Part shown: positions 11,689-61,843 of the stretch, one piece after another
Layout: every line of letters begins with the position of its first letter
How positions within the stretch are numbered: position 1 is the stretch's first letter
DNA from: Flammeovirga kamogawensis
GTDB lineage: Bacteria > Bacteroidota > Bacteroidia > Cytophagales > Flammeovirgaceae
Assembly (NCBI RefSeq): GCF_018736065.1
Contig: NZ_CP076130.1
Coordinates: 196,001-260,000, forward strand
Reading direction: 5' to 3'
Length of the DNA stretch: 64,000 bases
The notes under the pieces: model-generated
Database searches by the model: none
Told to the model about the DNA's origin: nothing
Seen by the model: only the letters and a program-made list of their open reading frames with translations
Translations under genes and position numbers: made by a program

Positions 11689-11772
11689 CTTACTATCTTT
11701 AGTGATAAATTAATAATTACAATTTTAAACTAGCTTAATGCACTCTATCTGCATTGAGAAAAATAATCTGAT

Positions 11773-12366: not shown

Positions 12367-12391
12367 AAAAGAACATTTCTGAATATATAAA

Positions 12392-12431
12392 AAATCCTGT
12401 CAATAAGCTTTGTTGCCTACTGACAGGATTT
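12392..12431 (-). terminator. Terminator of HdeD copy 1
   Basis: Stem AAATCCTGTCA / TGACAGGATTT; loop contains AAGCTTTGTTGCCTAC. Read on the minus strand the hairpin is followed by a T-run. Copies at 13222-13260 (one stem mismatch) and 14050-14089 share the loop sequence. Confidence 0.85.
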
Positions 12432-12454
12432 GGGAGTTTAATCTTCTTAAAAAC

Positions 12455-13027: not shown

Positions 13028-13221
13028 GATGATGTTTTTTATAAAGTGTTAAATTGTATTTCCTCTTTACTTGAGAGATATATAGTTTAACGCCATTTTT
13101 AATTGTAGTATTTGTAGAATATGATTAATCTATATCATAAAACGATAAAAGTATAAAAACTGTTAATTTTAAGAGTTCTACTAATTCATTTTAATCAATA
13201 AAAAAATCGAAATGCAAAAAA

Positions 13222-13260
13222 AAATCCTGTCAATAAGCTTTGTTGCCTACTAACAGGATT
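13222..13260 (-). terminator. Terminator of HdeD copy 2
   Basis: Same hairpin and loop as for copy 1, but TAACAGG replaces TGACAGG in the right arm, which introduces one mismatch in the stem. Confidence 0.8.
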
Positions 13261-13283
13261 TCTATTTTATTTCTTATTAAAAA

Positions 13284-13856
13284 TTAGTTTTTTGAGTAAA
13301 ACTCGTTTTTTAATTTTTTCAATTTTGCAGAAACAAAGAATTCAGAGATACCTGTATTAATTAAAGCAAAACTAGCAATAAATGCAGTAGTCATACCTGC
13401 TAAAGCAATGTTAGAAAGTAAGCAGAAACCTAAAAGTATACCTACAATACCAGAGAATAAAATCCAACCCCAGTTGCTTGAATGATCTTTGTATTCAATT
13501 GCTTTACCAATAGAATCAAAACCTTGAAACATTACATAAAAACCTAAATAAAGCGGTAAAGTTGTAACAGAAAGTGCAGGGTTTGCTATTAATAATGCAC
13601 CTAGAGCAGCAGTAAAAATTCCTCCAACTAAAGACCAGCCCCAACCAAGCATATTTTTTCTGTTTACAATAGCCATAATAACTTGTAGCGTACCAACCAT
13701 TAAAAATGTAATACTAAATATATAAGATAATGATACTAGTGTTACTAGTGGGTGCATTGCCGACCAAATACCTAAAGCTACAAATAATAATCCTGAGATT
13801 AATGGAAGGTACCAATGCTTAATATCAAATTTGATTTCGCTGAATAAATTGTTCAT
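13284..13856 (-). CDS. HdeD family (DUF308) membrane protein, copy 2
   Basis: 190 residues, same length and start as copies 1 and 3, with six membrane helices. The first 47 residues equal those of the other copies except for one or two changes (SYIFSITFLMVG here against SYIFSFTFLIVG). The upstream 150 bases are nearly identical to those before copy 1, indicating recent duplication or gene conversion between these two. Probably an inner-membrane stress protein. No in-frame damage, so all three copies appear functional, suggesting gene dosage is useful or the array is young. Confidence 0.88.
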   Translation of the reverse strand: MNNLFSEIKFDIKHWYLPLISGLLFVALGIWSAMHPLVTLVSLSYIFSITFLMVGTLQVIMAIVNRKNMLGWGWSLVGGIFTAALGALLIANPALSVTTLPLYLGFYVMFQGFDSIGKAIEYKDHSSNWGWILFSGIVGILLGFCLLSNIALAGMTTAFIASFALINTGISEFFVSAKLKKLKNEFYSKN

Positions 13857-14049
13857 GATGATGTTTTTTATAAAGTGTTAAATTGTATTTCCTCTTTACT
13901 TGAGTGATATATAGATTAACGCCATTTTTAATTGTAGTATTTGTAGAATATGATTAATCTATATCATAAAACGATAAAAGTATAAAAACTGTTAATTTTC
14001 AGAGTTCTACTAATTCATTCTAATCAATATAAAAATTGAAATACAAAAA

Positions 14050-14089
14050 AAATCCTGTCAATAAGCTTTGTTGCCTACTGACAGGATTT
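14050..14089 (-). terminator. Terminator of HdeD copy 3
   Basis: Hairpin AAATCCTGTCA / TGACAGGATTT with the shared loop; precedes a T-run on the minus strand. Confidence 0.85.
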
Positions 14090-14115
14090 AGGTGTTTAAT
14101 CTTCTTTATTAAAAC

Positions 14116-14688
14116 TTAGTTTTTTGAAGTAAACTCGTTTTTTAATTTTTTCAATTTTGCAGAAATAAAGAATTCAGAGATACCTGTATTAATTAAAGCA
14201 AAACTAGCAATAAATGCAGTAGTCATACCTGCTAAAGCAATGTTAGAAAGTAAGCAGAAACCTAAAAGTATACCGACAATACCAGAGAATAAAATCCAAC
14301 CCCAGTTGCTAGATATGTCTTTGTAGTCAATTGCTTTACCGATAGCACTAAAACCTTGAAACATTACATAGAAACCTAAGTAAAGAGGTAAAGTTGTAAC
14401 AGAAAGCACCGGATTTGCAACTAATATTGCACCTAGAGCAGCAGTAAAAATACCACCAACTAATGCCCAACCCCAACCAATTGTACTTTTTCTATTTACA
14501 ATTGCCATAATAACTTGTAGTGTTCCTACAATAAGGAAAGTAAAACTAAATATATAAGATAATGATACTAATGTTACCAATGGATGCATAGCCGACCAGA
14601 TACCTAAAGCGACAAATAATAATCCTGAGATTAATGGAAGGTACCAATGCTTAATATCAAATTTGATTTCGCTGAATAAATTGTTCAT
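14116..14688 (-). CDS. HdeD family (DUF308) membrane protein, copy 3
   Basis: 190 residues and six membrane helices; the most upstream of the three tandem copies. It is the most divergent in the middle (NRKSTIGWGWALVGG, FSAIGKAIDYKDISSNWG) and its upstream region differs from those of copies 1 and 2 after about 60 bases, so it may be the ancestral copy with the original promoter. It is divergent from the RND efflux operon across a 393-base gap. Function as for the family: a membrane protein linked to acid or envelope stress in other bacteria. Confidence 0.88.
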   Translation of the reverse strand: MNNLFSEIKFDIKHWYLPLISGLLFVALGIWSAMHPLVTLVSLSYIFSFTFLIVGTLQVIMAIVNRKSTIGWGWALVGGIFTAALGAILVANPVLSVTTLPLYLGFYVMFQGFSAIGKAIDYKDISSNWGWILFSGIVGILLGFCLLSNIALAGMTTAFIASFALINTGISEFFISAKLKKLKNEFTSKN

Positions 14689-14820
14689 GATGATGTTTTT
14701 TATAAAATTGTTAAAATGTTATTCTTCAATATTTGAGAGATATATACATTAACGGCACCTCTAGAAATAGTATTTGTATGATATGACAAAAAAGTATCAG
14801 ATACTGATAAATAAAATTTA

Positions 14821-14850
14821 TTGAAGATATAGAGATAATATTTAGCTTTG
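14821..14850 (+). promoter_or_regulatory. Candidate promoter for the RND efflux operon
   Basis: TTG at 14821-14823 and TAGCTTTG at 14843-14850 are separated by 19 bases, an exact match to the Bacteroidota -33/-7 consensus. It lies about 230 bases before the TolC start, so a long 5' leader is implied or a second promoter exists closer. Confidence 0.5.
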
Positions 14851-14961
14851 TGCTTTTAACTAGATTCAAGTTACTTTTAGTGGTTCTGTAACTATTATCA
14901 CACAGGCTCTCAATTAAGGAAGATACATTTGTACTATCATCAAACTTTAAAATAAATATAA

Positions 14962-15081
14962 TTACTTATTACTATGTTCTGCATTATTTACACATCCAAA
15001 CTGGATTGCCCTTATTTCTGAGGCATCATATCTATTACATCTTAAATCATAATTACATTCAATTCGCTTATCATATTCTAA
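14962..15081 (-). pseudogene. Possible gene remnant opposite the TolC leader
   Basis: The minus-strand frame from 15081 to the TAA at 14962-14964 reads as protein: YDKRIECNYDLRC, then NRYDASEIRAIQFGC, then VNNAEHSNK. Three cysteines and varied composition look more like a genuine C-terminus than random AT-rich DNA. No start codon is visible; upstream the frame runs into the TolC gene. It may be a decayed gene cut off by the efflux operon. The rest of the 14689-15081 gap holds only the candidate promoter. Confidence 0.3.
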
Positions 15082-39377: not shown

Positions 39378-39447
39378 TATATTATTGTTTAAGTTTCCGA
39401 ACTTAAAACAATAAACCAAGCCAATCTACCCAAATAGATTGGCTTGT
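39373..39447 (+). repeat. Rhs-cassette boundary repeat, left copy (with hairpin)
   Basis: The 28-base block 39373-39400 (CGAACTATATTATTG... ending AAGTTTCCGA) is identical to 41319-41346. It is followed by a hairpin AACCAAGCCAATCTA / TAGATTGGCTTG at 39414-39447, which recurs at 41360-41395 and in part at 42578-42616. The Rhs frame opens directly after the hairpin. The block reads as the 3' end of a former upstream immunity gene transcript (terminator) now followed by a displaced Rhs tip. Confidence 0.75.
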
Positions 39448-40968
39448 TTCATCAATCACAATACAGACCGCATTCTAGCCAACGAGCAACCCTTTCTTTC
39501 TCAAGGAGAAAATAATTATTTGTACGATGAAATTGGCAACCTTATCGCCGACAAATCAGAAAAAATACGCATTCATTGGAACCTCCAAGGAAAAGTAGAT
39601 CGCTCAGTACATTATGCCGAAGTTGCAGACTTTATTGATGCCTCAGGGAATGTAAAAACCTCCCCACAATCCCCCGAAAAAACAGTCAGTTACCGCTACG
39701 ATGCAAGTGGCAACCGCATCACCAAAAACGTGCATTATCATGCCAAAGATACGGTAACTAACACCTTGTATGTACGTGATGCCAGCGGTACAATTATGGC
39801 CACCTACAGCGACACATCAAGATACAGCAACCAAGAAATACTCAGCCCCTTGCAAATTGCCGAACTTCCAATTTACGGCAGCAGTCGCCTTGGTCAATAC
39901 ACCCCATCAGTTACTATTCAATCACAATTAGGTTTAGGCCACAGAAGATACGAACTCAGCAACCACCTTGGCAACGTTCTTGTGACGTATTCGGATGCAG
40001 GACACGTTCTTTCATATAGTGATTACTATCCTTTTGGACTGAGTATTACGGCTAGGAGTAGCGGAAGTGAGGGGTATAGGTATGGGTTTAATGGTAAAGA
40101 AAACGATACGGATTTAAGCAGTTCTCAGCTGATACAGGATTATGGCTTTAGGGTATATAATCCAGTGATTGGGAAGTTTTTGAGTGTGGATCCGTTGACG
40201 AAGAGTTATCCGATGTTGACGCCTTATCAATTTGCTAGTAATATGCCAATATGGGCTATTGATTTGGATGGACTAGAAAGATTAATTTATACTAAAAAAA
40301 GATTATATCATGAAGATATAAATAAAAAAATAACATGGTCTGTAGTTGCAAATAGTGGAAGATTACAATGGATGAATGATGTTAATTCTCAGGATGTTAA
40401 ATATGATCATGATACACACGAAGGGGGTGGTCCAATTCCGGAAGGGTCATATTTTATATCATTAGAGAATTCTAATGAAAGAGTGTCTAAAGGTGATAAA
40501 AACTTATCGAATGGATTAGGTTGGGGTAAATATGGAATTCGTTTAGATTATAACCTTTTTCAAGCAGCTAAATTAAAATTATTCTATAATGATAGAAGTG
40601 GTTTTTATCTTCATGAAGATGGTAACCAGAATTTAGAAGGTGGTTTAGGTAGTGGTGGCTGTATTGCATGTACAAAAGGAGGTGATATTTTAAAGGTAAG
40701 AGATCAACTTGTTGAATACCAAAAATCACAATTCAATGCTATTGATGTTGTTGTTGATTATGATTATAAACCCGATTTAAACTATAAAATAAATACTAAA
40801 AGTGATCCTCTTAATTTTAGATCCTCACCTGGAGGAAAAAAAATTGGTACACTTGAAAAAGATAGTTATGTAATTGGCACTGGTAACACAAGAGGAAAGT
40901 GGACTGAAGTGCAAAATAATGATGGAAAAGTGGGTTGGGTAGGAACAGATTATTTAAAGGAAGAGTAA
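39439..40968 (+). CDS. Orphan Rhs tip fragment: Rhs core C-terminus with Tlde1-like toxin and SH3b domain
   Basis: About 505 codons with no proper start: the frame opens at a TTG inside the hairpin and the first Met is far inside. Residues ~10-205 carry YD-type repeats (GENNYLYDEIGNLIA, SYRYDASGNRITK), then the core end YGFNGKEND ... YNPVIGKFLSVDPL and LTPYQFASNMPIWAIDLDGLE, after which Rhs proteins switch to the variable toxin. The tip has PIPEGSYFI, LHEDGNQN and GSGGCIAC (Cys about residue 408), a His/Cys arrangement like Tlde1/DUF2778 or YkuD L,D-transpeptidase folds acting on peptidoglycan, and ends in a bacterial SH3 domain (LNFRSSPGG, KVGWVGTDYL). It is silent unless recombined onto a full rhs gene. 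The toxin class is inferred from motifs. Confidence 0.75.
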   Translation: MACFINHNTDRILANEQPFLSQGENNYLYDEIGNLIADKSEKIRIHWNLQGKVDRSVHYAEVADFIDASGNVKTSPQSPEKTVSYRYDASGNRITKNVHYHAKDTVTNTLYVRDASGTIMATYSDTSRYSNQEILSPLQIAELPIYGSSRLGQYTPSVTIQSQLGLGHRRYELSNHLGNVLVTYSDAGHVLSYSDYYPFGLSITARSSGSEGYRYGFNGKENDTDLSSSQLIQDYGFRVYNPVIGKFLSVDPLTKSYPMLTPYQFASNMPIWAIDLDGLERLIYTKKRLYHEDINKKITWSVVANSGRLQWMNDVNSQDVKYDHDTHEGGGPIPEGSYFISLENSNERVSKGDKNLSNGLGWGKYGIRLDYNLFQAAKLKLFYNDRSGFYLHEDGNQNLEGGLGSGGCIACTKGGDILKVRDQLVEYQKSQFNAIDVVVDYDYKPDLNYKINTKSDPLNFRSSPGGKKIGTLEKDSYVIGTGNTRGKWTEVQNNDGKVGWVGTDYLKEE

Positions 40969-41571: not shown

Positions 41572-42486
41572 ATGAAGAATAATTTAATACGTTTTGATTG
41601 GGCAATAAAACGCCTCTTAAGAAATAAGGCGTATCATGTTATTTTAGAGGGATTTCTTTCAGAATTAATGCAGGAAGATCTTACTATAGATAGCATTTTG
41701 GAAAGTGAAGGGAATCAAGAATCCGCTTCAGATAAATTCAATCGTGTTGATATTCTGGTGAAAAATCAAAAAGGAGAATACGTCATTATTGAAGTACAAA
41801 ACCAATTAGAATTCAATTACTTCCAACGTATGCTTTACGGCACATCAAAAGTGCTTACAGAGTATATAAAAGTAGGAGAACCTTATCATAACGTCAAAAA
41901 GGTGTATTCAGTGAATATTGTCTATTTTGATTTAGGACAAGGAGCCGATTATGTTTATCATGGTAAAACTAACTTTGAGGGTATCTATCAGCATGATAAT
42001 TTAGAATTGTCAGGCAAACAAAAAGTATTTTTAGGAGAGGATAAAACACCTTCTGATTTATTTCCTGAATATTATATCATCAAGGTAAATCAATTTGATG
42101 ATGTAGCAAGAAACACCCTTGATGAATGGATTTACTATTTCAAAAACAACGAAATAAAAGACGAATTTAAAGCGAAAGGACTAGAACAAGCGAAAGAAAT
42201 TTTGAAAGTAGATAAAATGACAAAATCGGAACAAGCAAGCTATAAAAACCATATTGTCAATCTTATGGAAGAGGCAAGTAGAGAGCGTACTTTGGAGATG
42301 GAGGCGATTATTAAGGAGAGGGAGATTGGTAAGGAGGAAGGTAAGGAAATTGGTAAAGAAGAAGGAAAAAAAGAGCAAGCGATCGAAACAGCTAAATCTA
42401 TGCTTCAAGATGGATTAGATATTGAAAAAGTAGCATTGTATTCAGGTTTAACAATAGAAGAAGTAGAAGCATTGACTAAAAGATAG
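41572..42486 (+). CDS. Rpn family recombination-promoting nuclease / PD-(D/E)XK transposase-like
   Basis: 304 residues. The Rpn/PDDEXK_2 core is clear: FDWAIKRLLRNKAYHVILEGFLSEL, then the nuclease motif FNRVDILVKNQKGEYVIIEVQNQ (Asp ... Glu-x-Gln) at residues ~61-85, then YNVKKVYSVNIVYFDLG-like text. The C-terminal ~90 residues are the usual Lys/Glu repeat IGKEEGKEIGKEEGKK followed by a helix-turn LQDGLDIEKVALYSGLTIEEVEAL. Rpn proteins promote RecA-independent recombination and are frequent, multi-copy in Bacteroidota. Here it lies between two Rhs hairpins, either as cargo or as an inserted selfish gene. Confidence 0.9.
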   Translation: MKNNLIRFDWAIKRLLRNKAYHVILEGFLSELMQEDLTIDSILESEGNQESASDKFNRVDILVKNQKGEYVIIEVQNQLEFNYFQRMLYGTSKVLTEYIKVGEPYHNVKKVYSVNIVYFDLGQGADYVYHGKTNFEGIYQHDNLELSGKQKVFLGEDKTPSDLFPEYYIIKVNQFDDVARNTLDEWIYYFKNNEIKDEFKAKGLEQAKEILKVDKMTKSEQASYKNHIVNLMEEASRERTLEMEAIIKEREIGKEEGKEIGKEEGKKEQAIETAKSMLQDGLDIEKVALYSGLTIEEVEALTKR

Positions 42487-50639: not shown

Positions 50640-52235
50640 TTGAAAAATTCAACTATTCTTGATGTGGCTATCATCGGGGGAGGTATATCTGGAGTTTATT
50701 CAGCTTGGAGACTTAAAAAATCAGTTACTTACGCATCATCTAAAATTGCTTTGTTTGAACAAAGTAATAGAATTGGGGGAAGGTTGCTTTCTGTAACGCC
50801 TCCTGGAATGCCTAATACACGATGTGAGTTAGGAGGGATGAGATTTCTATCGAATCAAAAATATGTTTCTGGCATAGTAAATTTTTTAGACTTTGAATTA
50901 AAGGATGAAGATGTTTACGAAGAAAATAACATTGCTTATTTAAGAGGTATTCGACTGAGATTTAAAGAGTTAGTTGATAAAGAATTATTACCTTACAATC
51001 TTCAATTTCCAGAACAAGGTAAAACAAGTGATCAGATTCTTAATATCGCATTAGAGTCCATTATACCTGGGGTTACAACAAAAAAAGGAGAAGAGTTAAA
51101 GACTTTTTTACAGCAATATAAAGTAAACGGAAGATATTTATATGAATATGGATTTTGGAATCTATTGTCATTATCACTTAGTAATGAAGCCATAAATTAT
51201 ATAAAGAAAGCAGGTGGTTATGATTCTACTTTCCAAAATTGGAATGCATACGATACAATTGTTTTAAATTTTGATTTAACAGCTACTGACAATTCATATC
51301 ATATGATGGTAGATGGTTATGAACAATTACCAATTACATTAGTTGATCAATTTCTTAATTTAGGTGGTGAAGTAAATATGTTTCATAGCCTAAGCTCGAT
51401 AAATTCTATTTTAATTGAAGGGGAACAATTATTTGAATTAAAGTTTTCTATTAATGGAAGCTCAAAAATAATATATGCTCGTAAAACAATTCTTGCTATG
51501 CCTAAAAGGGCTTTAGAATTGATAGAGCAGAAAGGGAATATCTTCAATAAAGGTAATACCACACTAAATACATTAATGAATGCTGTAACACCTATACCAC
51601 TTTTTAAAATGTTTATTTGTTACCCATACCCATGGTGGGAACAAGTAGGGGTTTCTAAAGGACGTTCTGTTACAGATTTACCTATTCGTCAAACATATTA
51701 TTGGGGAGTTGAAAACCAAACCGAGAATGGTAATAAAGAGAATACAAATGCTGTATTAATGGCATCTTATGATGATGGCGATAGTGTTTACTTTTGGAAA
51801 GGATTAGAAAGTAAGAAAAATGAAAAGCCTTTATTCTTTACTACTCAAGAGCATGCCCATAAAGAAGAAGAAACATCTTTGTGGGAAAAATATAAATCGC
51901 CTGATTTAATGGTGAATTACATGGATGCCCAAATTAAAGAGATGCATGGAGTAAAATATGCTCCAGCACCTTTTGCAGCTTGTTTTAAAGATTGGAGTGA
52001 AGACCCTTATGGTGGTGGCGTTAATTTTTGGAATATAGGTGAGAAAAGTTGGGAAGTTATACCTCGAATAGCAAAACCATTAAATAACATGGATCTTTTT
52101 ATCTGTGGAGAAGCCTATTCTAATGGTCAAGGTTGGGTAGAAGGCGCACTTGAAACTGCTGAGTTAGTACTTCAAGATCATTTTAAATTATCTGCTCCAG
52201 CTTGGATTGAAAAGAAAGAAAATATTGAAAGTTAA
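50640..52235 (+). CDS. FAD-dependent amine oxidase (L-amino-acid/monoamine oxidase family)
   Basis: About 531 residues with the TTG at 50640; there is no in-frame ATG upstream of the Rossmann motif, and the GTG at 50598 would add a poorly conserved tail. The FAD-binding fold is VAIIGGGISGVYSAWRL followed by IALFEQSNRIGGRLL, with the substrate-side ELGGMRFL. The C-terminal FAD motif LFICGEAYSNGQGWVEGALETAE is typical of flavin amine oxidases. Expected reaction: oxidation of an amino acid or amine to the imine/2-oxo acid with H2O2. First gene of a tight three-gene set (KAS III-like, pseudokinase), suggesting a specific metabolite. A second, distinct oxidase lies at 58467. Confidence 0.88.
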   Translation: MKNSTILDVAIIGGGISGVYSAWRLKKSVTYASSKIALFEQSNRIGGRLLSVTPPGMPNTRCELGGMRFLSNQKYVSGIVNFLDFELKDEDVYEENNIAYLRGIRLRFKELVDKELLPYNLQFPEQGKTSDQILNIALESIIPGVTTKKGEELKTFLQQYKVNGRYLYEYGFWNLLSLSLSNEAINYIKKAGGYDSTFQNWNAYDTIVLNFDLTATDNSYHMMVDGYEQLPITLVDQFLNLGGEVNMFHSLSSINSILIEGEQLFELKFSINGSSKIIYARKTILAMPKRALELIEQKGNIFNKGNTTLNTLMNAVTPIPLFKMFICYPYPWWEQVGVSKGRSVTDLPIRQTYYWGVENQTENGNKENTNAVLMASYDDGDSVYFWKGLESKKNEKPLFFTTQEHAHKEEETSLWEKYKSPDLMVNYMDAQIKEMHGVKYAPAPFAACFKDWSEDPYGGGVNFWNIGEKSWEVIPRIAKPLNNMDLFICGEAYSNGQGWVEGALETAELVLQDHFKLSAPAWIEKKENIES

Positions 52236-52239
52236 TACT

Positions 52240-53247
52240 ATGAACCCAAGAATAATTGGGCAGGGCTACAGTGTTCCGACAAAAATAAGGTATAATGATG
52301 ATCCTATTTTTGATACAATTAAAGGTGATAATGGATTGTTTAAAGGATACAAAGAAAGAAGAGTATTACTAAACGATGAGTCTATTTCAGAACATATGGT
52401 TGTGGCTTGTAATAAAGCACTCCAAAATGCTAATATTTGCAGTGATGCTATAGATTATTTTATTGGGTATGGTTCTATATCTACCTATAGAGCACCAAAC
52501 ATAATGGCCAAATGCCATGCAGAACTTAGCTTACCTAGTAATTGTACTATTTTGCCAATTAATAATGAATTTAATCAGGTAAATATAGCAATCATGCTTG
52601 CTTCTAACCTAATAAGTAGTGGTGAGGCAGAGACAATTTTGATTGGTGTAGGTTCTAATTGGACAAAACATGTCGATTATACATCAAGTGCTTGTGTAAG
52701 TGCTTCTGATGCTGCTGCTGCTTTAGTCGTAAGTAAATCTAATGATTCTACTCTTTTTAAATATATAGATTCAGTTTCTATTACAGACACAAATGATTAT
52801 GGAAGTATGTTTAGTTCTTCGGATGTGATAGGTACAAAAAAACTTAATCAACCAATCCTTTCAGATATTAATTTGTATACTTCGCCTTATTTTCATTTAA
52901 CGGAACAAGGGGTAAATGTTTTTAAGGAATTTGGTATGAATAAGCCAATTGAGGCAGTTACAAATTTACTTCAAAGAAATAATTTAACAGCTTCTCAAAT
53001 TACGCTAATATCACATCAAGCGTCATCTGTATTAATGGATTTTTGGGAAAATGGGAACGATCAAATAAAGGGAATTGAACCAAATCAATATATAAATACA
53101 ATACAAGAATATGCTAATATGACTCTAGCTACAGTAGCTTTTAATTTGGCATTTAAATTGAGTGAAATAATAAATAATCACCTTGTACTTTTAACTGTGG
53201 GATTAGACCAGCAAACTACAGCGCTATTATTAACAAGAAATACTTAA
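52240..53247 (+). CDS. KAS III-like (FabH-type thiolase fold) protein lacking the catalytic cysteine
   Basis: 335 residues from the ATG at 52240, four bases after the oxidase; an upstream ATG at 52207 would overlap the oxidase. FabH features: PRIIGQGYSVPTKIR at the start, GEAETILIGVGSNW, SDAAAALVVSKS, catalytic-type His259 in LISHQASSVLMD and Asn293 in YANMTLATVAF. In FabH the active cysteine sits in AACAG at 112; aligned by the surrounding helix (NIAIMLASNLISSG), the position here is Phe111 in INNEFNQ. Condensation via a cysteinyl intermediate is therefore not expected. It could be an acyltransfer/decarboxylase-type variant or a binding protein. No acyl carrier gene is adjacent. Confidence 0.8.
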   Translation: MNPRIIGQGYSVPTKIRYNDDPIFDTIKGDNGLFKGYKERRVLLNDESISEHMVVACNKALQNANICSDAIDYFIGYGSISTYRAPNIMAKCHAELSLPSNCTILPINNEFNQVNIAIMLASNLISSGEAETILIGVGSNWTKHVDYTSSACVSASDAAAALVVSKSNDSTLFKYIDSVSITDTNDYGSMFSSSDVIGTKKLNQPILSDINLYTSPYFHLTEQGVNVFKEFGMNKPIEAVTNLLQRNNLTASQITLISHQASSVLMDFWENGNDQIKGIEPNQYINTIQEYANMTLATVAFNLAFKLSEIINNHLVLLTVGLDQQTTALLLTRNT

Positions 53248-53250
53248 AAT

Positions 53251-56200
53251 ATGACTTCAGACTTATCTTCAACTAGTGTAAAAAATATACAAGAAAATTC
53301 GAATTATAGAATTTGTATTTCTTCAGATAAACAAATACATAAATTATTAAAGTCGAGCCAATACGCTGCTTATATAAAATATGAATCAAATGTATTAGAA
53401 AACCTTAGTTTGCTTGATCAACCTAAATCAGACTTTTCTAATATTGTTTATAGATTTGGTGTTCTTTCTCGATGGGCTGAATTAGATTATGATAGTATTA
53501 GTTTAATAGAAAAGTGTAATTTATCTATCAAATTGATAAATAAGGTAGCAGAAATTCATGCACAGAATAGAATACATTATAATATATCGCCTAATACAGT
53601 TTGTGTAACAGAAGACAATACCATCGAATTAATTGGTTATGAATTAAGTTCTGAAGTAGGGGTAAGCACAGAATCTCAATCTTTATTAATGATTGATGAA
53701 AATAATTGGAATTACATTGCTCCGGAGCAAACAGGTAGGATAAATAGTAAATCGAATTATAAAACTGATCAATACAATGTAGGCATTTGTTTATATGAAT
53801 TATTTACTGGCACATTACCTTTTAAGGGTAAAGATAAACTAGAATTAATTCATGCACATATTGCTTACCAACCAAAATTAGTTCATCATTTAAGTGATGA
53901 ACTTCCACAATTTCTTTCGGAAATAATTAAGAAATTACTTCAAAAATCACCTGACCTTAGATATAATAATTTTAAAGCAATTGTTTCTGATTTAGAGAAA
54001 GTTAGAGACTTTTTTGAAGGGAAGACAAAGAATCTCCCTAAAACAGCAGGAGACGATGATACCAAAATAAAACTTGAAATTCTTGATAAACTATATGGTA
54101 GAAATATAGAGAAAGATAAATTCATAGCAAGTTATCAAAATATGAAAGATAATGGCTTATCTATTTTAGCATTATCTGGAGTATCAGGAATTGGTAAAAC
54201 ATCTTTTATTAGAGAGGCGATATATCAAATCTCTGATGAAAAATTAATTACGATATCAGGTAAATTTGATCAGTTTCAAAGAAATATTCCATATTTAGCA
54301 ATTAGCCAGATCTTAAATAACTTAGCAAGTCAATTTTTATTAAAATCTGATGAAGATATTAATGAATTGAAAGAACTTATTGCTAAAAATATTGGAAATA
54401 ATGGTAAAATATTAACCGAACTATCTTCTGAGTTAAAGCTTGTAGTAGATGATACTGCAGAGCTATCACCTTTAGGTTCATTAGAATCTATCAATAGGTT
54501 TATTTATACGGTAGCTCAGTTTTTAAGAGCAGTTTTAAGTCAGCATCCGTTAATTATTTTCATTGATGATATTCAATGGGCAGACTCATCGTCTATTGTA
54601 TTATTAAATGCAATCATTAATGATTTACAAGATGAACAGTTATTCTTTATTTTTGCGAGTAGAATTGAAGATAACGACTCTTTTAAAAATCTTATTCATG
54701 AAATAAAGGATATCAAAAAGTTAGTACAAGTAGAACTAGGACCACTAGAAGAAAATGATGTACTACAAATGATGGAAGATATTTTTATAGGAACTGATAA
54801 AGGATCTATAAAGAAACTTAGTAAAACTATTATTAGAAATACTGACGGTAATCCTTTTTATGTACGAGAGTTCTTTAATCAGATTATTCAAGATGATAAG
54901 AACATCTATTTTGCTGAAGCAAAAAGGAAGTGGGAAATAGATAATGAACAAATAGAGCAGAGCATGGCAACTGAAAATGTTGCAAATGTGAGCCTTAAAA
55001 AGAAAGATATTCTTTCTGATGAGGTAAATGATCAATTAGCAATTGCTTCGTTATTAGGAAATAGATTTGATGTAGTTATCCTTTCTTCTTTAATTGGGAA
55101 GAAAACTGAAGATGTTATTAAAACATTAAGAGAGACGGTTAAACATAACCTTTTAGTGCCTCTTTCAGATAACTATAAATATTATGATAAGGATGTAAAT
55201 AATAAGGTTGAGTTTCAGTTTATACACGATAAAATTAACCAAACTTATTATAATCATTTACCAGAAGAGAGACAAAATGAGTGGCATCTAAAAATTGCAC
55301 AATTAATCTTATCAGATCCTGAGTTAGAAGATTCTAAGTTAAAGTTAAAAGCGGTAAATCATGCTAATATATGCTCAGAAATAATTAGAGGAAGGTCTGA
55401 TGCTACTAAATATGCAAAATATAATCTAGAAGCAGCAATAACAGCGATAGATAATGCTGCATTCGATTCTGCTAAAAACTTTCTTCTTTTTGCAAAGAAA
55501 TATTTAAACGAAACTCCAACAAGAAAAGATTATATCTTTTGGATTGAAGTTAGATTAAAGTTAGCACAAACTTATTATGCTACTGCAGCTTATGACGATT
55601 GTCTAAAAACAATAAATGAGTGTATTCAATATGCCGAATCAGAAAAGCATATTTATGAAGCAGAATTTAGTAAAATTCAGTTAAACATTGTATTGGGAGA
55701 ATATAGTGAAGCAATTGATTTAATTACTAAAGGACTAAGAAAGAAACGTATAAAGCTAAATAAAAATCCGAAGCAGAAGGATATCATTTTTGGACTTATG
55801 AAAACAAAGTTTTTACTGCGTTCTCATTCGTTGAAAAAGTTAAATAAAATGCCCGATCTAGATAATGAAAGGGCACAACAGCAGTTGCAACTTTTAGGGC
55901 AATGTTTTTTACCAGCTTATATATCACGCCCATTACTATTTCCAATACTTGTTTATAAAGTTATTCAGATTAGTGTGAAGTATGGAAATTCACCAATATC
56001 AGCATTTGGTTTTTCTTGTTACTCATTACTTAACTCAGGAATTGGGCAATTTGATGACGCTAAAAAGTTTGGAGAATTTACAGAAGAATTACAAGCAAAG
56101 TATAATTATAAACCTTTAGAATGCTCTATAGAACAAAATTTAGTATCTTCCTTTTATCCAATTTTTAGGGGGTATAAATCATCTATAGAAAAATCTAATC

Positions 56201-58425
56201 TAGCAATATTATCAGGTTTAGAGTCTGGTGATACATTATTTACAGGTTTGTTACATTTACATAAATCTGCACAATTGTTAGTATCGTCAGAAAATTTAGT
56301 TAAGGTATCTACTGAATTGGCAAAGAGTATTGATGTATGTAATTCTTTATCTGAAGTAAGATCACCTTTATTAAAAGGGATAGCACAAGTTGCTAATTCA
56401 CTTTCTGATCCCTCAAACCCAGAATTTGATTGGGAAGAAATTCATAGTTATTATGAAGAAATTAATAGCCTAGGAGATTTATGTAATTCGTATCTATTTA
56501 AAGGAATAGAATACTTTTACTTAGGAGATTATGAGGCTGCTTATGATACATTAAAAATGGTAAAAAAATCTGAAGATGCCTTAATGGGGGTGTTCTATCA
56601 GAATGAATTTGTTTTCTATTATACACTATCAGTATTATTAAGTAAAGCAAGTACTACTAAAGAGATTAAAGGATGTAAATCTTATATTGCAAGATTAGGT
56701 CAGCTAGCAAAAATTAATGAAAAAGATTTTAGTGTTAAACATGCTTTGTCTTCTCTTTTATTTAAAATTAGAACGAATAAGTCAGCTGATTTAATGGAAA
56801 TAGATGCTTTACTTGATAGAAGTAAAGAGTTTAATCAACCTAACTTATCAGCTCTTTGTGCAGATATTTTACTCTCATTGTATAAAGAAAAATCACAGGC
56901 TACATTATTACAACATTATTATAGAACAGGAATAAAGGCATATAATGCATGGGGAGCAGTAAATGCTTTAGAACACTTTGTAGAACGCCATAATATAATT
57001 GATGGTGATTTATCTGCTGTAGAAAGCCAACCTCAGAATACAACGGTAAATTTAGATCTTAATACTATTCTTAAAGCAACAAATGTAATTGCAAAAGAAT
57101 TATCAGTTGAAAAGCTTTTAGAGTCAATTCTTAAAGTTGCTATAGAAAATGCTGGAGCAAATACCGGATTATTTATTACTAAAGTTGAAAATGAATTGTA
57201 TTTAAAAGCAAAAAGCTTAAATGCAGATTCTAATGAAATTGAGTTAGTAAATATTCCAATCTATAGTATTAAGAATGAATTACCAATTTCTATTATTAAT
57301 GAAGTAATCAATAATAAAAAAGAATTAATTCTTGAAGATGCTATACATGAAAACACCTTCAATAAGAGTGGTTATATCAAATTGCATAATACTAGATCAG
57401 TACTTTGTTATCCAATTCTAGTAAACAATGAAGTTAAAAGTATTATCTATTTAGAAAATAATTTAATAAATGGAGCCTTTACTGAAAAGCACCTCGAAGT
57501 AATTAAAATTCTATCTGCACAAGTAAGTATTTCTTTAGAAAATGCCTATCTCTATCAAACACTGGAAGATAAGGTGAATGAGAGAACGATTGAAATTAGA
57601 CATCAGAAGGATATCATTCAGAAAAGAAATTTAGATATTACGGATAGTATTAAATATGCAAAAAGAATTCAGAGTGCAATTCTACCAATAAAAGAATATG
57701 TAGATAAAGCTTTAACAGACAATTTTATTCTTTACAAACCAAAAGATATTATAGCTGGAGATTTTTATTGGATAGAAGAAATTGATAATCTCGTTCTTTT
57801 TGCAGCAGCAGACTGTACAGGACATGGTGTTCCTGGTGCGATGGTAAGTATTGTTTGTCATAATGCCTTGAACAGAGCAATTAAAGAATATAAACTTAGA
57901 AAACCAGCTGATATTTTAGACAAGGTTAGAGAAATTGTAATAGATTCCTTTTCAACTTCAAGTCAAGATGTAAAAGATGGAATGGATATTTCTCTTTGTG
58001 CACTAGATCGGGATAATATGATATTACAATATGCAGGGGCTTACAATAATCTGCATGTTGTGAAGAATAGAAAAATTATATCTTTTGAAGATACTGTGTA
58101 TTTAGAAGACGATGAAAAGGTAATGATTACCGTAAAAGGAAACCGTCAACCAGTAGGAAGACATAAAAAGACTGTACCATTTACAAATCACGAAGTAAAT
58201 GTAGAGAAGGGAGATATTGTATATGTGTTTTCTGATGGTTTTCCTGATCAATTTGGAGGTCCTAAAAATCAGAAATTCTTAGCTAAATCATTTAAGAAAC
58301 TTCTGTTTGATATAAGTCAGAAACCATTAAGTGACCAGCATGATTTATTAAATTATCGTTTTGAAGAGTGGAAAGGAAAGCAAGCACAAACGGATGACGT
58401 TTGTGTAATTGGTATGAAAATATAA
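53251..58425 (+). CDS. Multidomain signalling protein: pseudokinase, AAA ATPase, TPR-like, GAF and PP2C/SpoIIE phosphatase
   Basis: 1724 residues. N-terminal kinase-like domain (to ~255) with YIAPEQTGRIN and YKTDQYNVGICLYELFTG, but the HRD loop is HYNISPNTV (Asp replaced by Asn111) and DFG is replaced by GYE (129-131), and no glycine-rich loop is seen. An AAA_16-type ATPase follows (Walker A SGVSGIGKTSF near 309-319; Walker B LIIFIDDIQWADSS). Residues ~690-1240 are helical TPR-like repeats, ~1290-1440 a GAF domain (ITKVENELYLKAKSL), then a coiled coil, then PP2C/SpoIIE (1470-1724) with GDFYW (1502), ADCTGHGVPGAM (1518), DGMDIS (1575) and FSDGFPDQFGG intact. So phosphatase output with a dead kinase. 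It starts three bases after the KAS III-like gene. Confidence 0.88.
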   Translation: MTSDLSSTSVKNIQENSNYRICISSDKQIHKLLKSSQYAAYIKYESNVLENLSLLDQPKSDFSNIVYRFGVLSRWAELDYDSISLIEKCNLSIKLINKVAEIHAQNRIHYNISPNTVCVTEDNTIELIGYELSSEVGVSTESQSLLMIDENNWNYIAPEQTGRINSKSNYKTDQYNVGICLYELFTGTLPFKGKDKLELIHAHIAYQPKLVHHLSDELPQFLSEIIKKLLQKSPDLRYNNFKAIVSDLEKVRDFFEGKTKNLPKTAGDDDTKIKLEILDKLYGRNIEKDKFIASYQNMKDNGLSILALSGVSGIGKTSFIREAIYQISDEKLITISGKFDQFQRNIPYLAISQILNNLASQFLLKSDEDINELKELIAKNIGNNGKILTELSSELKLVVDDTAELSPLGSLESINRFIYTVAQFLRAVLSQHPLIIFIDDIQWADSSSIVLLNAIINDLQDEQLFFIFASRIEDNDSFKNLIHEIKDIKKLVQVELGPLEENDVLQMMEDIFIGTDKGSIKKLSKTIIRNTDGNPFYVREFFNQIIQDDKNIYFAEAKRKWEIDNEQIEQSMATENVANVSLKKKDILSDEVNDQLAIASLLGNRFDVVILSSLIGKKTEDVIKTLRETVKHNLLVPLSDNYKYYDKDVNNKVEFQFIHDKINQTYYNHLPEERQNEWHLKIAQLILSDPELEDSKLKLKAVNHANICSEIIRGRSDATKYAKYNLEAAITAIDNAAFDSAKNFLLFAKKYLNETPTRKDYIFWIEVRLKLAQTYYATAAYDDCLKTINECIQYAESEKHIYEAEFSKIQLNIVLGEYSEAIDLITKGLRKKRIKLNKNPKQKDIIFGLMKTKFLLRSHSLKKLNKMPDLDNERAQQQLQLLGQCFLPAYISRPLLFPILVYKVIQISVKYGNSPISAFGFSCYSLLNSGIGQFDDAKKFGEFTEELQAKYNYKPLECSIEQNLVSSFYPIFRGYKSSIEKSNLAILSGLESGDTLFTGLLHLHKSAQLLVSSENLVKVSTELAKSIDVCNSLSEVRSPLLKGIAQVANSLSDPSNPEFDWEEIHSYYEEINSLGDLCNSYLFKGIEYFYLGDYEAAYDTLKMVKKSEDALMGVFYQNEFVFYYTLSVLLSKASTTKEIKGCKSYIARLGQLAKINEKDFSVKHALSSLLFKIRTNKSADLMEIDALLDRSKEFNQPNLSALCADILLSLYKEKSQATLLQHYYRTGIKAYNAWGAVNALEHFVERHNIIDGDLSAVESQPQNTTVNLDLNTILKATNVIAKELSVEKLLESILKVAIENAGANTGLFITKVENELYLKAKSLNADSNEIELVNIPIYSIKNELPISIINEVINNKKELILEDAIHENTFNKSGYIKLHNTRSVLCYPILVNNEVKSIIYLENNLINGAFTEKHLEVIKILSAQVSISLENAYLYQTLEDKVNERTIEIRHQKDIIQKRNLDITDSIKYAKRIQSAILPIKEYVDKALTDNFILYKPKDIIAGDFYWIEEIDNLVLFAAADCTGHGVPGAMVSIVCHNALNRAIKEYKLRKPADILDKVREIVIDSFSTSSQDVKDGMDISLCALDRDNMILQYAGAYNNLHVVKNRKIISFEDTVYLEDDEKVMITVKGNRQPVGRHKKTVPFTNHEVNVEKGDIVYVFSDGFPDQFGGPKNQKFLAKSFKKLLFDISQKPLSDQHDLLNYRFEEWKGKQAQTDDVCVIGMKI

Positions 58426-58431
58426 ATCTAT

Positions 58432-58466
58432 GAGCTCCTCCTTTGTTTAAAAGGAGGAGCTTTTTA
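58432..58466. terminator. Bidirectional terminator between the two halves of the oxidase cluster
   Basis: Stem GAGCTCCTCC / GGAGGAGCTT around TTTGTTTAAA, with T-run on the plus side. It ends the plus-strand operon and, on the other strand, the oxidase/ThDP operon. Confidence 0.85.
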
Positions 58467-60035
58467 TTAAAATCTAAGAATTGCCTCAGTTTCTCTTAAT
58501 GAAGAAATTAAAGCACCTTGAATCCATGCTTGATCAGTAGAACAATGTTCACCTGCAAAAAATAACCTACCTTCTGCCTTTATAGTATCTTGCCATAAAT
58601 TTTCTAGTTGGCCAGGCCATAAAAAAGCAAATGCACCGGCAGACCATTCATAATTGCCCCATACTTGAGATTGATAACCAAGTACCATTCCTTTAGTTTT
58701 TAGTTCAGGATGTAATAATGCTACTTTATCAATTACCACTTCTTTTCTCATTTTATCAGTTAAAGCACCAAGTCTATTAGCATCTTCACCTAATGCATAT
58801 GAAGCTAAAAGGACGCCAGATTTATTTTTGTTTGTACCTTTAATTTTCTTTGGGTGCATTGACATTCCTCCAAAACCACGTACTCTTAAACTCTCATGAA
58901 TATTCTTTGAAGAGTCTACATGATCAGAAGGGTAATATGTCCATCTAGTAATTTCATCAGATAAACTAGCACCGCCAAAAATACCATTTTTTGTTTCCCA
59001 GAAACGTTCTTTACAATGTAAAACAGTTTTAGTTGCAGCAGCATATTTCATTTCTCTAATGGCTCTTTGTTTACCAAAAGAAATACCATCAATTTGGATG
59101 TTTCTAAGAACACTGAAAGGAATTGTACATAAAACAAAATCACATTTCTGAGAGAATTCTTTTCCTTTTTTATCTTTACAAGTTATTTCTACATACTTTT
59201 TAGTATTTACAATTGCTTTAACAACGGTATTGAACTTGATATTTGTTTTCACCTCTGCTTCTAATGCATCAGTAAGTTTACTCATTCCACCAATCACTTC
59301 TTTTAAGCCATCATCAGTGTCAACAATAGTATCACGAATAAACATTGTGATTGATTTATCTCTCCAACCATCGAGTCCAATAAAATTGCCAACAAGTTCA
59401 TTTGCATCTTCACCAACGCAGATTTCATCAATAAATTCACCAAGAGAGGTGTTATTATATTCTTTTAGGCGAGGTGTGGTGATTTTACCTTCGAATAGGT
59501 TTTTTATTTCTTCATCAGTTAATAAAGAGATAAGATGATTTAATGCAGCACCAAAAATTTTAGCTGGAGGCTGATTATTTTCTAACTTTTGGTAATTGGT
59601 TAAATTATATAAAGGAAGTAATTCTTCTCTAATATTTTTAATTTTGACTTTCTTATTCCTGCAATATACATAAGCATCTTGATTTTCGAAGATAGTTACA
59701 AAACGTCTGAGAGAACATTGCATTTCAGCAAGGTAGTGGAGGGTATAATCATGACTTTCAGGAACACGCATTGCACCAAGTTCTCCATAATTATTTTCAG
59801 GGTCATCTTTAAATCTGTAAGTAAAGATCCTACCACCAGTTCTTTCACTTGCTTCAATAATATCCACCGTATGTCCTAATTTTAGTAATTCGTAGGCACT
59901 GACTAAACCAGCTGCACCTGCACCTAAAATTGTGATATGTTTTTTTTCTGATCTCTTACTTGCTGCTCTAATTAAATCTAGTTGTTTCTGAATACTAGTA
60001 TGAGGGTAAGTAAGTGTTGTTTGTGTATTAGCCAT
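58467..60035 (-). CDS. Flavin monoamine oxidase family protein
   Basis: 522 residues. After a ~35-residue helical leader the FAD motif ITILGAGAAGLVSAYELL and DIIEASERTGGRIFTY appear, then YGELGAMRVPESH, and the C-terminal FAD motif LFFAGEHCSTDQAWIQGAL. Closest overall to L-amino-acid oxidase/tryptophan-2-monooxygenase-like flavoproteins; the aspect of the substrate pocket cannot be judged from sequence. The start at 60035 lies two bases after the stop of the ThDP enzyme gene (60038-60040), so the two are translationally coupled. Product of one enzyme (a 2-oxo acid) is a plausible substrate for the other. Confidence 0.88.
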   Translation of the reverse strand: MANTQTTLTYPHTSIQKQLDLIRAASKRSEKKHITILGAGAAGLVSAYELLKLGHTVDIIEASERTGGRIFTYRFKDDPENNYGELGAMRVPESHDYTLHYLAEMQCSLRRFVTIFENQDAYVYCRNKKVKIKNIREELLPLYNLTNYQKLENNQPPAKIFGAALNHLISLLTDEEIKNLFEGKITTPRLKEYNNTSLGEFIDEICVGEDANELVGNFIGLDGWRDKSITMFIRDTIVDTDDGLKEVIGGMSKLTDALEAEVKTNIKFNTVVKAIVNTKKYVEITCKDKKGKEFSQKCDFVLCTIPFSVLRNIQIDGISFGKQRAIREMKYAAATKTVLHCKERFWETKNGIFGGASLSDEITRWTYYPSDHVDSSKNIHESLRVRGFGGMSMHPKKIKGTNKNKSGVLLASYALGEDANRLGALTDKMRKEVVIDKVALLHPELKTKGMVLGYQSQVWGNYEWSAGAFAFLWPGQLENLWQDTIKAEGRLFFAGEHCSTDQAWIQGALISSLRETEAILRF

Positions 60036-60037
60036 GA

Positions 60038-61843
60038 TTAATATGCTTTAAGTTCGCTGTAATAAGGAGGGATTTCTTCTGTATTAATATGAGCAACAAT
60101 TACTTGTGGCTTGTTACTTTCATCGGCTCTTTGAATTGCTGTTTTTAAAGCAGCTTTTGCTTCAGTAATATCAGATACATCATAAGCTTCTGCTCCTAAA
60201 GACTCAGCAAAAAGTTTACAATTAGGGTTCCCAATTTTATAATAATCATCCCAAGATGTTTCAGAAGGATTTTTAGGAGGGAAGAAGTGTGCTTGACCCT
60301 GGCTTACCATTCCTAAATCGTTATCATTTAAAACTATCCAAATTGGTGCTATATTATATTGAATGGCAGTAGTAATTTCGGTACCATGCATCATAAAAGC
60401 TCCATCACCTACAATGGCTAAACATGTTTTATCAGGAGCTCCAAGTTTACCACCAATAACTCCTGCAACGCCAAAACCAAGTGGACCCATACTTAAAGAA
60501 TAATGTATTTGCATAGGAGGGCTTACATTTAAATAATGAAGAGACCATCCAACACAGTTAGCGCAATCACTAAAGATATTTGCATCTTTTGGAATTACCT
60601 CATTAACCACTTGCATTAAAGCTTGAGGGTAAATAGGGTTTTTATCCAGATGCATTTTTTCTGGATGTAAATATGGAGAATGCTTTTCCTTAATATCTTG
60701 TATGAAAGTTAGACGATTTTTAACAGCCTCATTTTGAGGTTTTTCATCTTTATCAGATATATCAATAAGTAAGTCAATAAAAGCCCCAACTTCTGCTATA
60801 ATCCCTCTAGATATAGGAATCCCTCTTCCTATAATACTTTGATCAAGATCAACTTGAATTACATTATGTAAAGACGGGTTTAAATCTTCTTCCCAAGAGT
60901 TAGTTGCTAATTTGCCTAAACTAGAACCTAAAATAACTAAGCAATCAAAATCACCATCTAAATGTTCACCTTTTAAGTAATATTGAGGCCACTCGCATTG
61001 TGCCGCACCAAAATTTCTTAAAGAGAGTTCATCATTTTCAGGGTAAATACCTTTCGCATCAGGCGTTGTCATGATAGGTAATGCATACTTTTTAGCAAAA
61101 GCTTGTACTCTTTGTAGTCTTACGGGATCTTGTAACGCAGCTCTAGAACCGTTTCCTAAAAATAACAAGGGCCTTTTAGCGCTTTTTATTTCATTAAAAG
61201 TAGCTAAAACACTCTTATAATTACAACCGTCGGGCACTGCTCTATAATTAGAAACAGTTCTAGGAAGATCAACATCATCTATCTGCATTGCGACAATATC
61301 ATTAGGTAAGCTAATATGTGCTGCTCTTCTTGGGATACTCCAACAAGTTCTTAAAGCTTGTTGAAAAATAGTAGAGAAGTTAGAACTGTCTGTTACTAAA
61401 CCACTGTACTGATCTGCATTATTATAAATAGCAGAAATATTAAGTTTAGCATCAATACCTTCTTGTAAATAAGCTTTACCAAAATATTTTTGATCAATTT
61501 CTCCTGTTATAGTTAACATTGCAGAGTTATTGGCCTGAGCGTTCATACTTGCTGTAAGAGCATTGGTAGCTCCCGGTCCAGCAGTTACTAATACTACTCC
61601 TAAATTACCTGAAGTTCTATAATATCCTTCAGCAATGTACCCTGCACCTGTTTCTTGTTTGGTAATAATATAATCAAATTCTTTGTTGTTGTTTTTTAAT
61701 GTAGTAATTAAGTTTGCTACGGCTGCACCTGGAATTCCAAAAATCTTTGTGACTCCTTCAAGTCTAAAATAAGCCAAAATTAAGTCAGCTACAGTGATAT
61801 TAGTATTACGCTGTACCAACTTGGAAGTAGAAGAGAATTTCAT
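60038..61843 (-). CDS. ThDP-dependent acetolactate synthase-like enzyme
   Basis: 601 residues, single-subunit size. N-terminal Pyr domain: VADLILAYFRLEGVTKIFGIPG, catalytic glutamate Glu64 in TKQETGAGYIAEG, LVTAGPGATNALT. Middle FAD/nucleotide-like domain, then the PP domain with GDGAFMMHGTEITTAIQYN and IWIVLNDNDLGMVSQGQ. This is the IlvB-like superfamily (acetolactate synthase, pyruvate oxidase, glyoxylate carboligase, decarboxylases). An adjacent small regulatory subunit, expected for housekeeping ALS, is absent, and partners are oxidases, so a specialised oxo-acid ligase or decarboxylase is more likely. The gene precedes the amine oxidase in a two-gene operon. Confidence 0.9.
   Translation of the reverse strand: MKFSSTSKLVQRNTNITVADLILAYFRLEGVTKIFGIPGAAVANLITTLKNNNKEFDYIITKQETGAGYIAEGYYRTSGNLGVVLVTAGPGATNALTASMNAQANNSAMLTITGEIDQKYFGKAYLQEGIDAKLNISAIYNNADQYSGLVTDSSNFSTIFQQALRTCWSIPRRAAHISLPNDIVAMQIDDVDLPRTVSNYRAVPDGCNYKSVLATFNEIKSAKRPLLFLGNGSRAALQDPVRLQRVQAFAKKYALPIMTTPDAKGIYPENDELSLRNFGAAQCEWPQYYLKGEHLDGDFDCLVILGSSLGKLATNSWEEDLNPSLHNVIQVDLDQSIIGRGIPISRGIIAEVGAFIDLLIDISDKDEKPQNEAVKNRLTFIQDIKEKHSPYLHPEKMHLDKNPIYPQALMQVVNEVIPKDANIFSDCANCVGWSLHYLNVSPPMQIHYSLSMGPLGFGVAGVIGGKLGAPDKTCLAIVGDGAFMMHGTEITTAIQYNIAPIWIVLNDNDLGMVSQGQAHFFPPKNPSETSWDDYYKIGNPNCKLFAESLGAEAYDVSDITEAKAALKTAIQRADESNKPQVIVAHINTEEIPPYYSELKAY

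Follow-up and report, generated by a model that had tools for sequence, protein, structure and literature searches.

Alpha-hydroxyketones are a known class of autoinducers in Vibrio and Legionella (PMC3376566), and acyloins were obtained from amino acids in one pot with an L-amino acid oxidase (LAAO) and the thiamine diphosphate (ThDP) enzyme NzsH (PMC9822442). Here, we describe a locus in a stretch of 64,000 nucleotides from Flammeovirga kamogawensis (contig NZ_CP076130.1; the whole stretch is referred to as the window), for which the nearest known systems are the carbazole and xenocyloin pathways and CAI-1/LAI-1 signalling. The locus consists of two convergent operons: the plus operon encodes an LAAO (LAAO1), a FabH-like protein of the KASIII type, and a 1724-aa STAND signalling protein, and the minus operon encodes a ThDP enzyme and a second oxidase (LAAO2). 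In our estimate, it falls only a little short of an even chance that the two operons are halves of one conserved module, apparently spread by horizontal transfer, for making and sensing an amino-acid-derived alpha-hydroxyketone.

In the carbazole pathways (Cqs/Nzs: CqsB7, CqsB3, CqsB1, and CqsB2), which were compared by description, the 2-oxo acid is provided by an aminotransferase, whereas an oxidase is encoded here. The KASIII-like enzyme of those pathways is said to keep its catalytic residues and to condense with an acyl-ACP (acyl carrier protein), after which a cyclase acts; the KASIII-like protein of the window is Cys-less, and beyond the five genes no further gene was found in the window operons, where no profile search aimed at CqsB2 or ACP was made. 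A further difference is the STAND protein, which is a feature of the window module. The xenocyloin pathway of Xenorhabdus (XclA-C) contains a ThDP enzyme, XclA. It resembles the locus in its ketosynthase (KS)-like proteins, to which an acylating role after acyloin formation is ascribed (PMC4425429, PMC4578411); as far as the descriptions allow a comparison, two such proteins occur there and a single Cys-less one here. The CqsA/CqsS and LqsA/LqsS systems are similar in the predicted product class and in the pairing of a synthase gene with an adjacent gene for a receptor-like protein (PMC3376566). According to the same source, a pyridoxal phosphate (PLP)-dependent enzyme makes the signal and a membrane histidine kinase reads it; this kinase has six transmembrane segments. 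A synthase and kinase of this type were not among the Pfam content of the five window proteins, which combine ThDP chemistry with a STAND protein; thus, the parts of the module and those of these systems have nothing in common beyond the predicted compound class. In agreement with the preliminary description of the locus, searches of open-licence literature yielded no described system that contains this set of genes. The enzymes taken singly are new members of known superfamilies, and the novelty lies in their being combined with a STAND protein whose output differs.

Linkage and co-inheritance of the gene set

Outside the genus, the genes for the ThDP enzyme, LAAO1, and the KASIII-like protein were contiguous in 13 loci, and the STAND gene lay beside them in 12, the contig of the 13th (L036) ending at that point. 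Together with the window and its congener G003, this gave 15 triads (13 contiguous and 2 split) in Bacteroidota, Acidobacteriota, and Pseudomonadota, and a STAND gene coding for 1168–1728 aa abutted the KASIII gene in 14 of them. The assignment of both operons to one system, initially deduced from their convergence and the duplicated oxidase, is thus well supported, and the proposed association of a receptor-like regulator with the enzymes is supported in kind.

Fourteen loci were obtained by scanning genome contigs with a KASIII alignment; the scan used two peptide patterns, so that relatives without these patterns were missed, and the linkage counts are conditional on KASIII because every locus was found through this protein. 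The order ThDP-LAAO1-KASIII was present in 11 of the 14 scanned loci, namely in Granulicella, a Terriglobia metagenome-assembled genome (MAG), Flavihumibacter, Daejeonella, Adhaeribacter, Flavisolibacter, a Chitinophagaceae MAG, Maribellus, Cnuella, Parafilimonas, and a Nevskia MAG. Two more full sets were found in a Pseudomonadota genome (G958, locus L075) and on the Rhizobium jaguaris plasmid NZ_CP032695.1 (L076). Genes for the ThDP and KASIII proteins with no LAAO gene in the stretch seen occurred in Dictyobacter (L041), Mumia (L042; the ThDP gene is distant and divergently placed), and Nocardioides (L043; the contig ends 1.2 kb past KASIII). At 6428–9993 of L043, a 2-isopropylmalate synthase (741.8 bits; PRK03739 cut-off, 455) directly precedes the ThDP-KASIII pair, and it is possibly another supply of 2-oxo acid for the Cys-less KASIII family.

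Among nine genomes of the window's genus, ThDP, LAAO1, KASIII, and LAAO2 occurred together in two, the window genome (G000) and G003. In the latter, both operons are intact on one contig, 47 kb apart, as ThDP-LAAO2 (L016) and LAAO1-KASIII-1728-aa protein (L017), and the gene-neighbourhood comparison did not find the operons apart in most genomes. LAAO2 (1e-30) was detected in 2 of 14 relatives, i.e., solely in the window genome and G003, and lies outside the core of the module.

The genes are rare on a wider scale. Among relatives of the window genome, the ThDP enzyme (E ≤ 1e-60) was found in 2 of 58, LAAO1 (1e-20) in 3 of 38, the third being G021 with 35% identity, and KASIII (1e-10) in 11 of 38; with the exception of the window genome itself and of a single copy in G003 (58%), the KASIII matches had 25–29% identity and E-values of 9e-13 or weaker. 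In a sample of 395 genomes of the phylum, the ThDP enzyme at 1e-75 and KASIII at 1e-25 each had matches in the identical two genomes, G000 and G176. The G176 locus (L021; its record is also that of Flavihumibacter soli L031) holds ThDP, LAAO1, and KASIII in a single operon, convergent with a gene for a 1324-aa cyclase-AAA_16 protein. In Acidobacteriota, KASIII at E ≤ 1e-40 was found in 1 of 149 genomes, the search centre itself. At 1e-25, matches were obtained in 24 of 256 Actinomycetota and 49 of 249 Pseudomonadota genomes; the search centres, G456 and G454, stood out, as did G958, a new find with 440 bits, whereas all others had at most 117 bits and were treated, by the score gap alone, as ordinary FabH and left uncounted.

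Phylogenetic trees of KASIII, ThDP, and LAAO1 each grouped the window with G003, the two Acidobacteriota loci L030 and L035 with each other, and L033, L034, L036, L038, and L039 with one another. L031 and L032 paired in the KASIII and LAAO1 trees and formed no resolved pair in the ThDP tree; several branches were poorly supported. The pairwise distances of the four proteins were correlated over 14 loci, with r values of 0.80–0.94 for all six protein pairs, and over the 12 loci that are left without the window pair (r 0.67–0.92); in both cases, 0 of 5000 permutations reached these values. Shared descent of the hosts contributes to the correlations. The rare and patchy occurrence of the module in distantly related hosts fits horizontal spread.

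The STAND protein and its output domains

The STAND gene of the window (53251–58425, plus strand) encodes a pseudokinase, an AAA_16 domain, a repeat region, a GAF domain, and a SpoIIE phosphatase (Pfam: Pkinase, AAA_16, GAF, and SpoIIE). The AAA_16 NTPase domain covers aa 280–467 (54088–54651, plus; Pfam) and has both Walker A and B motifs; it is followed by the GAF domain at aa 1284–1430 (57100–57540, plus; Pfam) and the SpoIIE-type phosphatase domain at aa 1515–1723 (57793–58419, plus; Pfam and NCBIfam). In the kinase-like domain of the window and G003 proteins, HRD reads HYN and DFG reads IGY, so that both aspartates are lost and the domain is classified as a pseudokinase; together with the SpoIIE domain, this agrees with the earlier label of a pseudokinase-phosphatase. 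The STAND kinases of L030 and L035 keep HRD and DFG.

The 1724-aa protein is the strongest AAA_16 match of the window genome (8.7e-26; the next is 1.4e-7). Each of the seven Bacteroidota genomes searched (G447–G453) had exactly one AAA_16 match at E ≤ 1e-12, and this match was located in the cluster locus. At the same threshold, three matches were found in Granulicella and two in Nevskia, one of each at the cluster, and 11 in Dictyobacter and 8 in Nocardioides, none of them at the ThDP-KASIII pair.

Pfam searches of 7 of the 12 extra-genus STAND proteins revealed a Guanylate_cyc-AAA_16 architecture in five, although the cyclase match of L040 did not reach its cut-off; the other two, L030 and L035, had Pkinase-AAA_16. 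At L032, L038, and L039, an AAA_16 match was present at the STAND position, and the proteins of L075 and L076 were assigned by BLAST scores of 464–856 bits against other cyclase-type STAND proteins. The predicted output is a cyclase in most relatives, a Ser/Thr kinase in the two Acidobacteriota, and a pseudokinase with a SpoIIE phosphatase in the window. The whole C-terminal sensor is common to the cyclase- and kinase-type proteins, with E-values of 7e-76 (526 columns) and 3e-76 (552 columns), so the output domain has been exchanged on one sensor among these 12 loci. Against the profile of this sensor, the C-terminal parts of the window and G003 proteins gave E-values of 7e-8 and 4e-8 over 403 and 303 columns, respectively (probability about 95), better than five control AAA_16 proteins (1.4e-5 to 7e-3 over 69–153 columns); the controls were what was left of six AAA_16 stretches after L079, which had no frame with a Walker motif, was dropped.

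A structure model of the L031 STAND protein (pLDDT 90.2, pTM 0.74), the one protein for which the repeats were modelled, contains an NTPase and helical repeats. Its nearest structures were the TPR STAND protein 6mfv, Apaf-1, and CED-4, while a chain of a maltose-system complex (8bob) ranked 14th; since the TM-scores are low (0.18–0.30 of the model), the matches mainly concern the NTPase part. These proteins share the NTPase and helical repeats with the L031 model, which differs in being tied to three biosynthetic genes. In the L031 protein (gene at 11022–14996), the first of the two cyclase domains contains metal-site motifs, the second has an N..R motif, and the order cyclase-cyclase-NTPase-helical repeats is presumably that of mammalian soluble adenylyl cyclase. 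Compared with the latter and with TOMM kinase/cyclase fusions, the proteins described here have three linked biosynthetic genes and differing output domains. To our knowledge, no ligand has been established for most bacterial STAND proteins.

Catalytic residues of the enzymes and organization of the window

The KASIII-like protein (52240–53247, plus; ATG start; Pfam ACP_syn_III) falls below the NCBIfam fabH cut-off (82.1 vs. 292.1 bits). It had been described as lacking the active cysteine, and the alignment confirmed this: Phe111 (codon 52570–52572, plus) stands at the position of the FabH nucleophile, which is occupied by Phe in 13 of 18 homologues and by Tyr in the other 5. The equivalents of the FabH catalytic His and Asn, His259 (53014–53016, plus) and Asn293 (53116–53118, plus), were kept in all 18, which leaves the Cys-His-Asn triad incomplete. 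The AlphaFold model (pLDDT 87.9) has the thiolase fold, with PqsD as the top fold match (TM 0.82), followed by FabH, and with PqsBC chains also matched; the protein differs from all of these at the nucleophilic Cys. Because this residue is replaced by Phe or Tyr, the protein should not hold an acyl group. Enzymes of the thiolase fold rely on these His and Asn residues for decarboxylation. As both are retained in a protein without the Cys, we propose that it decarboxylates or tautomerises the ThDP product.

The ThDP enzyme (60038–61843, minus; Pfam TPP_enzyme N/M/C) belongs to the acetolactate synthase superfamily and carries three TPP_enzyme domains, as well as the catalytic Glu and the GDG...N/D metal motif of ThDP carboligases. 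In 17 of the 18 sequences, L042 being excluded as too distant, the catalytic Glu64 and the GDG Asp480 were invariant (17/17), and position 507 was Asp in 15 and Asn in 2. The enzyme scored below the NCBIfam acetolactate synthase equivalog cut-off (234.7 vs. 538.35 bits). Its closest solved relatives by sequence profile were BbmA (342.7 bits) and CsmA (220.9 bits; PDB 8x3x and 8x3z), ahead of the best acetolactate synthase (198.5 bits); no paper on BbmA or CsmA turned up in the open-licence literature searched.

Both oxidases, LAAO1 (50640–52235, plus) and LAAO2 (58467–60035, minus; 1.4e-57), match Pfam Amino_oxidase, as their initial naming as amine oxidases implied, and the closest similarity of both is to L-amino acid oxidases. 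The start of LAAO1, the FAD-dependent oxidase of the triad, was placed at TTG 50640, which matches the start of the G003 homologue; a mechanical rule puts it at GTG 50598. The closest solved relative of LAAO1 is the ancestral LAAO 8jhe (393.9 bits, PDB), and that of LAAO2 is the L-amino acid oxidase 3kve (170.5 bits), which we take to be of the snake-venom type. LAAO2 may supply a 2-oxo acid from a second amino acid. Violacein VioA was the top NCBIfam match of LAAO1, yet with 89.2 bits against a cut-off of 600 this identity was rejected. Residue roles were adopted from PMC10517122 and mapped onto the alignment of the 8jhe search with an offset of 2. The dinucleotide motif is present in LAAO1, and the Arg that binds the substrate carboxylate and the O2-reactive Lys were kept in 15 of 15 loci. 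The position of W482 of HTAncLAAO2 is Val in 15/15. At that of W220, the window and G003 have Leu, compared with Glu at the remaining 13 loci, so that the pocket residues do not allow one LAAO1 substrate to be named.

LAAO1 at 1e-40 was found in 7 of the 395 phylum-sample genomes, compared with the two for ThDP and KASIII; thus, LAAO relatives exist without the rest of the module. Relatives with 34–40% identity were seen in G046, G142, G227, G371, and G224 (L024 and L026–L029), genomes in which neither a ThDP nor a KASIII gene passed the search thresholds, and two of these frames are far longer than LAAO1 (706 and 968 aa) and are perhaps fusions.

All five open reading frames (ORFs) of the preliminary description are present in the window as tightly packed operons with intergenic gaps of 2–4 nt. 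Between the operons lies an intrinsic terminator (58432–58466, plus) with a 13-bp hairpin at 58432–58462 (−22.1 kcal/mol, z −6.3; equalled by none of 200 shuffled sequences). The hairpin proposed earlier is thus real, but its designation as bidirectional is only half supported, because a good T-run follows it on the plus side only. Elsewhere in the window, three tandem, nearly identical genes for 190-aa membrane proteins (12455–14688, minus; 573 nt each, spaced by about 260 nt) belong to the DUF308 family by Pfam of the first copy. At 39439–40968 and 41572–42486 (both plus), an RHS-like repeat fragment, recognized by eye, is fused to YkuD/Tlde1-like and SH3 domains; it begins at a TTG with no evident N-terminus near a gene of the PDDEXK_2 transposase family, and looks like a polymorphic-toxin remnant.

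Proposed function and competing explanations

In the proposed mechanism, LAAO1 would oxidise an L-amino acid to a 2-oxo acid, here together with LAAO2, which probably acts on a second amino acid. The ThDP enzyme would join two 2-oxo acids into a hydroxy-keto acid, and from this unstable product the KASIII-like protein would form, by decarboxylation or tautomerisation, one stereoisomer of an alpha-hydroxyketone (acyloin). The repeat part of the STAND protein would then bind the product, the AAA_16 domain would switch, and the activity of the exchangeable output would change. A receptor is the best explanation for the STAND protein because it is a constant neighbour of the enzymes with differing outputs.

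The strongest competing explanation, which we consider unlikely but of real weight, is a small secondary-metabolite cluster whose product, of the acyloin or indole type, serves as an antibiotic, pigment, or toxin; the STAND protein would then regulate the pathway in response to a cue other than this product, for instance ATP, stress, or the supply of amino acids. Similar chemistry does yield bioactive acyloins, carbazoles, and xenocyloins (PMC9822442, PMC7466098, PMC4425429), an outer membrane efflux protein is encoded upstream in L035, and the one NCBIfam match of the L031 STAND protein at 1e-10 was TOMM_kin_cyc, a kinase/cyclase fusion of biosynthetic clusters (119.7 bits; cut-off, 705.75). 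However, Pfam searches of nine neighbours at five loci and the ORF maps of the flanks, which differ except between L031 and L032, revealed no constant exporter or tailoring gene, and the STAND gene is present no less regularly than those of the enzymes although its output changes. Quite improbable is an acyltransferase or condensing partner of the XclB/XclC or PqsBC type in place of a decarboxylating KASIII-like protein, with an O-acylated or chain-extended acyloin as the end product: the aromatic residue at the nucleophile in 18 of 18 homologues argues against acyl transfer and a second KS gene was not seen in the operons, even though KS-type acyltransferases were reported for xenocyloin (PMC4425429, PMC4578411) and PqsD, FabH, and PqsBC chains are among the best fold matches.

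STAND proteins and class III cyclases also occur in defence, and the STAND protein might sense phage infection and halt growth by its output together with H2O2 or a metabolite made by the enzymes. The sparse, patchy distribution agrees with this, as do the PADLOC matches of the L031 STAND N-terminus to the Pycsar cyclase model PycC (1.2e-9), of the window pseudokinase to 23 kinase models such as PD-T4-6, and of LAAO2 to C3a186, described as a desaturase (7.3e-34). We nevertheless regard anti-phage defence as very unlikely, since LAAO1, KASIII, and ThDP of the window had no PADLOC match, the three enzymes together make up a coherent biosynthetic route, and some ThDP-KASIII pairs have no AAA_16 gene next to them. 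Least credible of all is amino acid catabolism with peroxide production, in which the ThDP enzyme clears 2-oxo acids and the STAND protein tunes the process to amino acid supply. LAAOs liberate H2O2 and NH3, and the catalytic residues are retained; however, the ThDP and KASIII genes, at two genomes each in the phylum sample, are rarer than expected for catabolism, which would also leave the conserved Cys-less KASIII unexplained.

Several points weigh against a module for making and sensing a hydroxyketone. The full-length profile scores of the window and G003 STAND proteins (210 and 196) are not above those of the controls (162–344), and by BLAST the window protein scored no better against the 12 other cluster STAND proteins (36–87 bits) than against the five controls (48–84 bits). 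The kinship of its sensor to those of the other loci is weak; a common origin is possible, and a similar STAND protein may also have been recruited independently in the window lineage. The pocket Leu of the window pair, compared with Glu at the other 13 loci, indicates that the oxidised amino acid probably differs. L031 and L032 share flanking genes and gene lengths and are therefore to be counted as one site; they may represent one insertion. The ThDP-KASIII pairs of Dictyobacter and Nocardioides, with neither LAAO nor an adjacent AAA_16 gene, suggest that the chemistry is not everywhere tied to sensing. Finally, we infer the substrates, the product, the KASIII step, and the STAND ligand alike from the genes.

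A fixed three-enzyme set has, in three phyla, a large STAND protein tied to it, the sole AAA_16 match at E ≤ 1e-12 in the seven Bacteroidota hosts searched, and the KASIII family, uniformly aromatic at the nucleophile with His and Asn kept, provides a clear, testable claim of unusual thiolase-fold chemistry. As the candidate ligand of the STAND protein is the product of the neighbouring enzymes, this ligand can be made and tested. A wider conclusion, possible but with the balance of our judgement leaning against it at present, is that the locus represents an undescribed class of bacterial chemical signalling, in which a hydroxyketone made by an LAAO, a ThDP enzyme, and a Cys-less KASIII is read by a dedicated STAND receptor, with the output swapped between lineages and the set spreading horizontally across phyla. 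If this holds, bacteria would possess a previously undescribed means of producing and perceiving a chemical.

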